Notes under the pieces: model-generated
What the model saw: the letters and a program-made list of their open reading frames with translations, nothing else
Database searches by the model: none
What the model was told of the DNA's origin: nothing
Origin: Microbacterium lacticum
GTDB taxonomy: Bacteria > Actinomycetota > Actinomycetes > Actinomycetales > Microbacteriaceae
Length of the DNA stretch: 64,000 bases
NCBI RefSeq assembly: GCF_006716815.1
Contig: NZ_VFPS01000001.1
Span: 186,001-250,000, forward strand
Direction: 5' to 3'
Position numbers and translations under genes: made by a program
Shown here: in pieces, positions 45,122-49,437 of the stretch
Position numbering within the stretch: position 1 is the stretch's first letter
Layout of the letters: each line of letters opens with the position of its first letter

Positions 45122-45242
45122 CCCCGGCTGGATGACCGGTGACCAGGGTCGCACGCGGCGGCGCTGAGCCGGCTCCGACCCGGCGTTTGGTATCGTCGTG
45201 TGGTTGGCAAGACGTTCGCCCGAGAGGGCGCGAGAGGCATCT

Positions 45243-46763
45243 GTGACGAACGAATCCCGGCGACAGCAGCACGACGAACGGCCGGACGCGACGTTCACCC
45301 ACCCCTTGGCGGACATCGCCGCGCAGGTCGACGGCGAACTCGTCACGGACGGTCCGGCGGTGACCGGCATCGCGCTCAGCACGCAGGGCGTCCGCCCCGG
45401 CGACCTGTTCGTCGCGGCGGGCGGCGCGAGCACGCACGGCGCGCGGTACGCCTCCGACGCCCTCGCCGCGGGCGCGGTCGCCGTGCTCACCGACCCCGAC
45501 GGTGCCGCGCTCGTTCCGGGCGGGGTGCCGATCATCGTCGTCGCCGACCCGCGTGCCGTGCTCGGCCGCCTCTCGGTGTGGTTCTACGACCGGCCCGCCG
45601 ACGCGCTGAAGACCATCGGCGTCACCGGCACGCAGGGCAAGACCTCGACGACGTTCCTCATCGACGCGGCGCTCGGCGAGCACCACAGCGGGCTCATCGG
45701 CTCGATGGGCTCGAAGATCGACGGCGTCCCGGTGCCCACGAAGCTCACCACTCCCGAGGCGCCCGCCATGCAGGCGCTCCTCGCCCGCATGCGGGAGCAG
45801 GGCGTGCGCTGGGTGTCGTCGGAGGTCTCGAGCCAGGCGATCTCGATGCGCCGCGTGGATGGCCTCGTGTTCGACGTCGCGGTGTTCCTCAACCTCGGTC
45901 ACGACCACCTCGACTTCCACGGCTCGCAGGAGAACTACCGGGCCGCGAAGCGCGAGCTGCTCACCCCGGCGATGTCGCGACTCGCGCTCGTGAACATCGA
46001 CGATCAGGCCGGCCGCCGCTTCCACGACGACCCGGAGCTGAACACCGAGTCATTCTCGATCACCGGCCGCGACGCCGACTGGCGCGCCGTCGACATCGAG
46101 CTCGGGCCGGACGGCTCGGCCTTCACCGTCGTCGGCCCCGAGGGGCAGTCGGCGCGCTTCACGACCCCGATCATCGGCACCTTCACGGTGAGCAACATCC
46201 TCGCCGCCGTCGCCGCACTCGACCGGGTGGGATACCCGCTCGAGCGCTCGGTCGCCGGCCTCGCCGACTTCACCGGGCCCGAGGGGCGCGTGCAGTTCGT
46301 GCCCGTCGACGCGGACTTCCGTGTCGTGATCGACGCGGGCCACAAGCCGGAGGCGATCAACGCGCTGCTGTGTGCGCTCCGCCCCGCGACCCCCGGCCGC
46401 ATCATCACGGTGATCGGCTCGAACGGCAACCGCGACGCCCACAAGCGCCCGCTGATGGGGCGCTTCTCGGCCATGGCATCCGACGTCGTCGTCGTCACCG
46501 ACGACAACCCGGCCGACGAAGACCCCGCCATGATCCGTCGAGCCGTCGTCGCGGGCACGCGCGGCTCGCGCGCCGAGGTGTTCGACGTGGCGGGCCGGGC
46601 CGAGGCGATCCACCACGCGGTCGACCTGGCGCAGCCCGGTGACCTGCTCGTCATCGTCGGCAAGGGCGACGAGCGGCACCAGATCACGGCGCACGGCATC
46701 GTGCCGCACAGCGACCCCGACGAGGTCGAGTGGGCTCTGGCGCGTCGACGCGCCGCGAACTGA
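45243..46763 (+). CDS. murE: MurE-family UDP-MurNAc-tripeptide synthetase (DNPA type)
   Basis: Adds the third amino acid of the peptidoglycan stem peptide. Mur domains in order: N-terminal UDP-binding (about 20-110), ATP loop GTQGKTSTT near 129, carbamoylated-lysine segment YRAAKREL near 235, and C-terminal domain. The selectivity motif reads DNPADEDP near 420, where diaminopimelate enzymes have DNPR; DNPA is known from L-lysine-adding MurE. The usual DYAH-x-P motif reads DAGHKPEA. GTG 45243 with GAGAGG upstream. Located outside the division cluster. Confidence 0.88.
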   Translation: MTNESRRQQHDERPDATFTHPLADIAAQVDGELVTDGPAVTGIALSTQGVRPGDLFVAAGGASTHGARYASDALAAGAVAVLTDPDGAALVPGGVPIIVVADPRAVLGRLSVWFYDRPADALKTIGVTGTQGKTSTTFLIDAALGEHHSGLIGSMGSKIDGVPVPTKLTTPEAPAMQALLARMREQGVRWVSSEVSSQAISMRRVDGLVFDVAVFLNLGHDHLDFHGSQENYRAAKRELLTPAMSRLALVNIDDQAGRRFHDDPELNTESFSITGRDADWRAVDIELGPDGSAFTVVGPEGQSARFTTPIIGTFTVSNILAAVAALDRVGYPLERSVAGLADFTGPEGRVQFVPVDADFRVVIDAGHKPEAINALLCALRPATPGRIITVIGSNGNRDAHKRPLMGRFSAMASDVVVVTDDNPADEDPAMIRRAVVAGTRGSRAEVFDVAGRAEAIHHAVDLAQPGDLLVIVGKGDERHQITAHGIVPHSDPDEVEWALARRRAAN

Positions 46764-46772
46764 GCTCGGGGA

Positions 46773-47030
46773 TCAGCTCACGCTCGGGACGCCGTCGGGG
46801 CAGTGCATGAGCGGCTTCGGGCCGGATCGGTCGAAGGTGTGCTGCGACATCGGCGCTTTGCACAGGGGACAAGCGCGCTCGGTGCGCGCCGGCTCGGGTG
46901 CGGTGTCGTAGGGGCCGACGGATGCCGGGCCGGCGAAACGGATCAGGCGGTTGTTGAGGTAGGCGTACCAGCCGCCGCCGGCTCGCGCGCGTTCGCGCAG
47001 CGACGGCCGGTCGCGATCGCTTCGTGTCAT
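46773..47030 (-). CDS. small zinc-ribbon-like protein divergent from the OhrR-like regulator
   Basis: 85 residues: a basic N-terminus (TRSDRDRPSLRERARAGG), a GWYAYLNNRLIRFAGPASVGPYD middle and a CPLCKAPMSQH ... PKPLMHCPDG tail whose cysteines and histidines could bind a metal. TACACT (47043-47038) ends 7 nt before the ATG. It shares the operator at 47036-47047 with the divergent regulator gene, so it is probably part of the same peroxide response (inference). Function unknown. Confidence 0.75.
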   Translation of the reverse strand: MTRSDRDRPSLRERARAGGGWYAYLNNRLIRFAGPASVGPYDTAPEPARTERACPLCKAPMSQHTFDRSGPKPLMHCPDGVPSVS

Positions 47031-47035
47031 GATGA

Positions 47036-47062
47036 TTAGTGTACTAACGAATCGCGTAGAAT
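47036..47062. promoter_or_regulatory. divergent promoters with TTAGT-gt-ACTAA operator
   Basis: A 12-bp palindrome TTAGTGTACTAA (47036-47047) lies between the small zinc-ribbon gene and the MarR/OhrR gene. It covers the minus-strand -10 (TACACT, 47043-47038) and the region upstream of the plus-strand -10 (TAGAAT, 47057-47062). Both start codons are 7 nt from their -10. The arrangement predicts autorepression and co-repression by the OhrR-like protein. Confidence 0.7.
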
Positions 47063-47069
47063 GCGGCGC

Positions 47070-47507
47070 ATGGACCCGCGCGACGATCTGCTGAAACTCG
47101 AGAACCAGCTCTGCTTCGCGCTCGTCACCGCTGCGCGCAACGTCGTCTCGATCTACCGCCCCGTGCTCGAGCCCCTCGGGCTGACGCACCCGCAGTACCT
47201 CGTCATGCTCGCGCTGTGGGAGCACGCGCCGCGGGCGCTCGGCGAACTCGCCGACGAGCTCGCGATGGAACCGGCGACCCTCTCGCCGATCGTCAAGCGG
47301 CTGGAGGGGCAGGGTCTCGTCACGCGGGCCCGGAGCGCCGCCGACGAGCGCGTGCTCGAGATCGCGCTCACCACCGAGGGCGCCGAGCTGCGCACCGTCG
47401 CCCTGGCCGTCCCCGAGCAGATCATGGCGCGGGTGGCGATGGATGCCACAGAGCTCGCCGCCCTCCGCGACGGTCTCGCTCCGTTCTCCGGCCGGCGAAG
47501 CGGCTGA
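47070..47507 (+). CDS. OhrR-like MarR family redox regulator
   Basis: Winged-helix repressor of 145 residues. The N-terminus KLENQLCFAL contains a single cysteine at position 15, the peroxide-sensing Cys position of OhrR, followed by PQYLVMLALWEH and a recognition region TLSPIVKRLEGQGLVTRARSAADER, all close to Bacillus OhrR. No second cysteine, so it would be a one-Cys type. ATG 47070 is chosen over ATG 47061 by -10 spacing. No ohr/osmC gene is adjacent; a catalase is convergent downstream. Confidence 0.9.
   Translation: MDPRDDLLKLENQLCFALVTAARNVVSIYRPVLEPLGLTHPQYLVMLALWEHAPRALGELADELAMEPATLSPIVKRLEGQGLVTRARSAADERVLEIALTTEGAELRTVALAVPEQIMARVAMDATELAALRDGLAPFSGRRSG

Positions 47508-47562: not shown

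Positions 47563-49437
<1,875 letters not shown>

Follow-up and report, generated by a model that had tools for sequence, protein, structure and literature searches.

A redox-sensor-like gene in Microbacterium lacticum and in many related bacteria seems to be devoted to switching on one tiny protein. In the window (the whole 64,000-nucleotide stretch analyzed here, part of a 3.09-Mb genome), a one-cysteine OhrR-like gene and a small CPLC zinc-ribbon-like gene are divergently transcribed across one palindrome, just where an earlier sequence-only reading had placed them (Table 1). We give a probability of roughly two in three to a dedicated, self-regulated switch with one output, in which the regulator would repress both genes, modification of Cys15 would release it, and the small protein would be the output. 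The two genes, their operator, the conservation of the pair, the separate clade of the regulator, and the lack of a second operator in the genome are all features of the sequences compared here.

RESULTS

The locus and its operator

Table 1. Features of the locus and of the canonical pair in the same genome (window positions unless a contig is named)
Feature	Position	Strand	Description
MurE-like ORF	45198-46763	+	convergent with the small gene, 9 bp from the small-gene stop
Small protein gene, 85 aa	46773..47030	-	start ATG 47030; N-terminal helices, GPASVGP core, C-terminal CxxC...H...C half
Cys77 codon	46800-46802	-	candidate zinc ligand
His64 codon	46839-46841	-	candidate zinc ligand
Cys57 codon	46860-46862	-	candidate zinc ligand
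Cys54 codon	46869..46871	-	invariant candidate zinc ligand
Operator TTAGTGTACTAA	47036..47047	.	unique in genome; in 129/149 genus genomes; putative protein-binding site
TACACT, likely -10 of small gene	47038..47043	-	inside operator; read by eye
TAGAAT, likely -10 of ohrR-like gene	47057..47062	+	putative
OhrR-like MarR regulator gene, 145 aa	47070..47507	+	one cysteine; His at Tyr40 position; alternative ATG 47061
Cys15 codon	47112..47114	+	aligned with OhrR sensing Cys; Cys in 113/113 tree rows
His40 codon	47187..47189	+	Tyr in canonical OhrR
Catalase ORF	47563-49437	-	convergent, 55 bp past the regulator gene end
Canonical ohrR-ohr pair	contig C6 18594-19510 (L005 1498-2417)		same genome

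The small protein follows the pattern GGWYAYLN...AGPASVGPYD...CPLC...H...CP, and its gene is taken as coding because third-position changes are in excess against relatives (relative to L101, 21 third-position changes, 2 first, and 2 second over 70 codons). The MurE-like ligase ORF adjoins apparent uvrB and coaE genes (by eye), not a division cluster. The catalase ORF matches HPII from profile position 101 on; its N terminus is perhaps shorter, or its start lies further upstream.

The operator consists of 5-bp arms (TTAGT/ACTAA) flanking a non-palindromic GT. With up to two mismatches allowed, the window contains two matches where 0.05 would be expected; one is the site and the other its reverse. 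In the genome search for the 12-bp operator proposed by the sequence-only reading, the exact word occurs once in the 3.09 Mb, and no further occurrence of TTAGTNNACTAA was found elsewhere in the same genome. When up to two mismatches are allowed, the genome yields 7 matches, including the operator counted once on each strand, whereas the reversed control yields 15; we therefore claim no further targets and see no wider regulon.

By eye, TACACT would imply a leaderless start at the small-gene ATG, and TAGAAT, 7 nt before the regulator ATG, places the operator near the ohrR-like -35. This placement, on the probable -10 of the small gene and near the putative -35 of the regulator, agrees with the earlier claim that the palindrome overlaps both core promoters. 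Across the genus, the small-gene ATG lies within 6 nt of the exact 12-mer in 29/29 loci (own included), and a Shine-Dalgarno-like word is present in 6/29 loci with the exact 12-mer. On the regulator side, TANNNT occurs 4 to 9 nt ahead of an in-frame ohrR start in 20/29 genus loci and is absent in 9/29.

The operator forms observed include TTAGTGTACTAA, TTAGTGCACTAA, and TTAGTATACTAA, with TTGGTGCACCAA and TTGGTGTACCAA in other families. In the latter two, an A-to-G change in one arm is matched by a T-to-C change in the other, which would suit a site read by a symmetric dimer. Two copies stand 15 bp apart in L234 and L341, and an extra ATTAG follows the operator in many Microbacterium loci. In a tally of the best-scoring word in about 300 bp at each of 102 loci, made with a motif picked post hoc and without a shuffled control, a degenerate 12-mer palindrome has a full match in 69 loci (symmetric arms in 66) and no full match in 33.

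A distinct His-type regulator

The regulator matches Pfam PF01047 (MarR) at 52.6 bits, against a gathering score of 24.6; PHROGs and PADLOC gave only weak matches for it, to other winged-helix or unknown families. OhrR is the textbook peroxide sensor and its output is Ohr; Tyr29 and Tyr40 surround its sensing cysteine, and Tyr40 hydrogen-bonds that residue. Cys15, the sole cysteine of the window regulator, is by alignment the counterpart of the one in 1-Cys OhrR. The Cys15 and Tyr29 positions match in the alignments with the Xanthomonas and Bacillus structures (1z91 itself has Ser at 15), Tyr29 is kept, and position 40 is His, aligned with Tyr in both the Bacillus (40) and the Xanthomonas (47) OhrR. 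Because Tyr40 is replaced by His, organic-peroxide sensing is not to be assumed. The residues reported to contact DNA in Bacillus OhrR, namely Thr39, Gln42, and Arg94 (PMC4737184, PMC2650471), are retained. Against the NCBIfam OhrR model NF052638 the regulator reaches 138 bits, below the cut-off of 200; we read little into this shortfall because the canonical OhrR of the same genome scores lower still (110).

In a tree of 113 regulators, 83 His-type rows are split from 30 canonical OhrRs of the same family by a branch with support of 100/99. The description "OhrR-like," with a single cysteine, stands, with the amendment that the regulator falls in a His-type clade of its own. Thirty tree rows from other families were selected by a His-containing pattern; their His is uninformative because that pattern demands it, and they are excluded from the His count. 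In the His clade the recognition helix starts with LEPAT, LDPGT, or a related sequence, compared with LDSGT in 27/30 canonical rows, a difference in keeping with the different operators of the two clades. A clear Ohr adjoins 21 of the 30 canonical regulators and a weak OsmC-like match another 7; 2 have neither as a neighbor. Neither TTAGTNNACTAA nor TTGGTNNACCAA was found in their loci (0/30).

No ohr was found at the small-protein/regulator locus. The genome carries three OsmC-family genes, all away from this locus; one, on contig C6, is an Ohr above the family cut-off and lies beside a Tyr40-type OhrR that has 40 to 46% identity to the window regulator, with 43% in one of the comparisons. 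Upstream of this ohrR-ohr pair is ACAACTTGATTGC (by eye). The earlier statement that the usual ohr partner is absent is correct for the locus but not for the genome, in which ohr has its own OhrR. An ordinary ohrR-ohr pair with another operator is present, and the window pair is therefore a second, parallel module; likewise, a zinc-ribbon protein "instead of Ohr" describes the locus and not the cell. The sequence-only reading had named, as the outcome that would count against it, an ohr elsewhere with the same operator together with an unconserved partner. That outcome did not occur: the ohr found has a Tyr-type OhrR and a different upstream sequence, and the zinc-ribbon partner is conserved. 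With ohr beside its own OhrR and the palindrome nowhere else in the genome, ohr appears not to be a target of the window regulator through this operator, although control in trans through another sequence may occur.

These features bear on what the regulator senses. The signal may be something other than organic peroxide, such as a quinone, sulfane sulfur, hypochlorite, or a metal; His40, near Cys15, would then adjust the thiolate or take part in a Cys-His site. We give this possibility a little less than an even chance. His40 is found in 53/53 rows that were chosen via the small protein and so regardless of this residue (10/10 Microbacterium, 43/43 other), compared with Tyr in 30/30 canonical OhrRs from that family. 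The genome already carries an ordinary ohrR-ohr module, and MarR proteins that sense sulfane sulfur are described in print (PMC11211675). Set against this are the retention of Cys15 in 113/113 and of Tyr29 in 111/113 rows and the identity of the closest solved relatives, both of them OhrRs: 2pfb from Xanthomonas, at E 4e-34, and 1z91 from Bacillus, at E 3e-29.

The small protein

The CxxC, His, and Cys residues are invariant in 19/19 and 31/31 alignment rows and may bind a metal. Scores listed against Pfam zinc-ribbon models are far below cut-off. We found no OsmC domain with Pfam or NCBIfam, no NCBIfam match of any kind, two sub-threshold Pfam matches only, and no match in PHROGs or PADLOC; Rfam gave nothing at gathering score on five loci. 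AlphaFold2 (31 rows) returned a model with a pLDDT of 74 and a pTM of 0.35, for which the best Foldseek match in the PDB has an E value of 3.4 and VIA-align found no match with Z >= 2. Given this middling model without a PDB match, we build nothing on structure.

Conservation of the pair in genus and family

In the genus survey, the small protein is matched at E <= 0.001 in 32/35 members (own included). Thirty loci were examined, one per genome, and 29 of them (own included) carry the divergent regulator and the exact 12-mer; at L033, from a 77%-complete genome, the small-protein locus has neither regulator nor operator. The 12-mer is constant across the 29, and the surrounding bases vary. It occurs exactly in 129/149 genus genomes (own included) and is lacking in exact form from 20/149; it was counted 130 times in all, and the reversed word 8 times. 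It is present once per genome in 128 of the 129 and twice in one. When genus loci were fetched by the 12-mer alone, blind to genes, 30/30 carried the divergent pair.

The best 80 of 231 named loci, headed by M. paulum and M. hominis, have a divergent LTHPQYL regulator in 80/80 cases, with the exact 12-mer in 69 and one mismatch in 11. Their flanks (up to 4 kb) hold a MurE-like gene in 7/80 and a catalase in 0/80, and in the genus set (1.5-kb flanks) the 29 other loci have an adjoining catalase in 2 (L013, L014) and a MurE-like gene in 1 (L025). As the neighbors change while the pair stays, the pair is not a by-product of frozen gene order. Catalase as a member of the module is disfavored by its absence from all 80 named loci within flanks of up to 4 kb, although it adjoins the two genus loci just mentioned.

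For the family, a typed consensus query for the small protein (E <= 0.001) found it in 130/199 genomes. Among the 28 best loci from other genera, the regulator lies on the opposite strand in 26 (not in L085 and L091). Twenty lower-scoring loci picked by hand have a regulator in 17 cases, of which 14 are divergent, 2 tandem with the small gene first (L245, L253), and 1 convergent (L257); no regulator was found in the stretch examined at L241, L255, and L256. The palindrome TTAGTGCACTAA precedes the small gene in L257, where the regulator is convergent, and in L255, where it is not adjacent. In these two loci, therefore, the operator goes with the small gene and not with the regulator. A variant operator precedes the small gene in both tandem loci.

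These loci are not independent, as many come from close relatives and several genomes are in more than one set. Within that limit, the conservation of the divergent pair that the earlier reading asked to see is borne out (29/30 genus loci, 26/28 from other genera, and all of the best 80 of 231 named loci). It is highly improbable that the pair is ordinary synteny within one genus, without a regulatory link. MarR genes are common and often adjoin small genes, as is generally known, but this pair outlasts change of both flanks, recurs across families, and keeps its 12-mer in 29/29 genus loci while nearby bases vary.

Some further loci deserve mention. At L250 (G199) and at G274:C1:660691-661153, two zinc-ribbon small proteins stand in tandem, resembling a local duplication; in L250 they adjoin the regulator. 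L155 (JACEFY010000265.1), a 3.8-kb contig labeled Stenotrophomonas maltophilia, carries a Microbacterium-like pair and is probably assembly contamination. Zinc-ribbon-like small proteins are also present at L202-L203 (family f5) and L205-L207 (family f16), with no OhrR-like match in the stretch covered.

Partner types beyond the family

A 21-base degenerate LTHPQYL pattern is found in 87/297 genomes of the order and a 30-base one in 95/394 genomes of the class (own family included in both). Thirty loci from other families of the order (L211-L240) have a GP-core small protein beside the regulator in 27 cases: it is divergent in 24, downstream in L235, and upstream on the same strand in L237 and L238. 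No GP-core partner was found in L236, L239, and L240. The C-terminal half in the 27 loci is not a zinc ribbon but a ...PDGHSYVVE-like end or a basic DPRARxKREY...RRR tail, and these loci rule against a zinc ribbon as the universal partner.

The GP-core regular expression, written after looking, has at least 25 matches across L211-L240; of those listed, 24 fall at the partner. A hidden Markov model (HMM) of the 27 N-terminal columns of the Microbacteriaceae small-protein alignment gave 15 matches at E <= 1 in 1505 six-frame fragments of the 30 order loci, of which 14 are the partner ORF; the single E values are weak (0.01 to 0.54), and shuffled fragments gave 0 matches. The noisier full HMM gave 24 matches on the same fragments (0.011 to 0.98); the partner accounts for 20 and other ORFs for 4, and shuffled fragments yielded 4 as well (best, 0.035). 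We ignored a set of "zr" matches that lie antisense to the regulator in L211-L240, attributing them to an over-long query ORF (L073, 309 aa).

Outside the order, 27 loci chosen by the His pattern (L324-L350) have a GP-core partner in 15 (12 by pattern; L338, L339, and L345 by eye) and DUF5313 beside the regulator in 6. No partner was found in L336, L337, L340, and L348 (for L340 and L348, by automatic searches only). In L341 and L342 (family f35), a tiny, apparently one-helix membrane protein with HGPAKW is divergent from a His-type regulator (by eye).

A class-wide blind test applied the full Microbacteriaceae small-protein HMM to 1595 six-frame fragments from 31 loci (L302, L303, L322-L350). 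In 10 loci, belonging to four further families, it picked out the ORF that diverges from the regulator, with E values from 2e-17 to 2e-6; all 10 ORFs carry CxxC...H...C, and no other fragment scored below 0.01. Shuffled fragments gave 3 matches (best, 0.031). With the N-terminal HMM, 5 of 7 matches are the partner (best, 4e-4), against 2 in shuffled fragments (best, 0.057). The 10 matches indicate that zinc-ribbon pairing itself spans the class, with other C-terminal halves in some lineages. Confinement of the zinc ribbon to Microbacteriaceae, an idea that arose from its detection in 27/297 genomes of the order with 5 outside the family, is rejected by the matches in four further families. The zinc-ribbon partner of the original claim is conserved, but what it shares with the partners in other families is the N-terminal GP-core, to which different C-terminal halves, the zinc ribbon among them, are joined. 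The partners thus form a family of small proteins united by the GP-core, with a zinc-ribbon-like C-terminal half in this genome and in four further families of the class and other sequence elsewhere; in the scans made, the GP-core family is covered by no Pfam or NCBIfam model.

Plasmid records matched the regulator in 556 cases, five of which were examined. In Arthrobacter sp. ERGS1:01 (L296), the regulator diverges from two GP-core proteins in tandem and TTAGTGCACTAA is present; the unannotated record of Arthrobacter sp. StoSoilB13 (L297) shows a single GP-core protein and the same palindrome; Microbacterium sp. NIBRBAC000506063 carries the pair on a 465-kb plasmid record; and the records of Rhodococcus pyridinivorans and Tsukamurella tyrosinosolvens have the LTHPQYL regulator followed by DUF5313.

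The diversity of partners also bears on whether the small protein could be an antirepressor or resetting factor that binds its paired regulator and tunes or ends the response. The single operator, the single target, the tight co-conservation, and the small size of the partner would all suit such a role, for which the 53-residue ArmR acting on MexR offers a precedent (PMC4737184). We nonetheless consider it unlikely: from lineage to lineage the partner has entirely different C-terminal halves although its regulator changes little, the Rhodococcus and Tsukamurella records have DUF5313 proteins in its stead, and copies of the small protein exist with no regulator in the stretch examined (L085, L091, L241, L255, L256, L202, L203, and L205-L207).

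DISCUSSION

We favor the self-regulated switch with the small protein as output, and we infer repression, Cys15 chemistry, and small-protein action in the following form. A homodimer of the His-type one-Cys OhrR-like regulator would bind TTAGTGTACTAA, covering the small-gene -10 and its own -35 region and repressing both genes. Oxidation of Cys15, or its modification by mycothiol or an electrophile, would release the repressor, and the freed promoter would yield a probably leaderless mRNA and from it the small protein, presumably the sole output of the module. The operator on one -10 and near the other -35, the one target, and the conserved single Cys argue for thiol-controlled repression of both genes. 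Within the small protein, the N-terminal helices and GP-core may form the shared working part and the C-terminal half a lineage-specific attachment. Our guess is that it is induced by stress and binds at the surface of membranes or ribonucleoproteins, and that it is not a peroxidase, as no catalytic-looking residue is common to the C-terminal types (by eye).

A broader reading is that, in the class Actinomycetes, a His-type one-Cys OhrR clade is devoted to GP-core microproteins (60 to 100 aa) whose C-terminal half is exchanged (zinc ribbon, PDG-Y type, or basic tail), with DUF5313 in some lineages; we regard this as an even bet. If true, the thiol-stress response of actinobacteria would have a new branch, working via microproteins instead of a peroxidase. 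The His-type clade, by the strict DNA pattern present in those 95 of 394 class genomes, pairs with a tiny protein in many lineages, and the pairing suggests a thiol or peroxide stress role for a family without a Pfam or NCBIfam model. One sensor, one operator, and one small output make a clean, testable system, for example in Microbacterium or Arthrobacter.

In open-licence PubMed Central, we found no OhrR with a zinc-ribbon partner, no paper on the GP-core small-protein family, and, by title, no bacterial paper for the operator words or LTHPQYL. The closest known arrangements are partial likenesses. SCO3205-sco3204 of Streptomyces coelicolor, characterized by surface plasmon resonance (SPR) and crystallography (PMC3737563), likewise has a MarR regulator with operators between divergent genes. 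It differs in its consensus, TTnAAnnnTCAA, and its dioxygenase-like partner (PMC3737563), and its entry 3zpl is absent among the 53 PDB matches listed for the window regulator. OhsR of Corynebacterium glutamicum, which senses organic peroxide via S-mycothiolation (PMC6306002), is comparable by its title only, and that title names it an activator. The MarR-DUF5313 operons of the Rhodococcus and Tsukamurella plasmid records have a regulator with LTHPQYLVML (outside the 113-row tree) and a similar operator-like sequence upstream. In contrast to the window pair, their partner is DUF5313 (PF17240), of about 130 aa and mid-hydrophobic (by eye), and it lies on the strand of the regulator.

The nearest well-known system is OhrR itself. 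The window regulator is like the 1-Cys OhrR of Bacillus subtilis (PDB 1z91/1z9c) in fold family, length, Cys15, Tyr29, Thr39, Gln42, and Arg94; the Xanthomonas OhrR (PDB 2pfb/2pex) is of the 2-Cys kind (PMC3469484). It differs in having His for Tyr40, a small-protein partner and not Ohr, and the operator TTAGTGYACTAA, compared with the published OhrR box ACAATTNAATTGT (PMC6034001); the palindrome TTAGTGTACTAA is not like the boxes given in that source. The module would resemble that of OhrR in its working but is not classed with it, because Tyr40 and the OhrR box are lacking and ohr is apparently not its target. The canonical ohrR-ohr pair of the same genome is a further comparison. Both pairs have a one-Cys-type OhrR beside a redox gene, and the canonical pair differs in its Tyr40, its Ohr neighbor, and the upstream ACAACTTGATTGC, which resembles Streptomyces OhrR boxes (PMC6034001).
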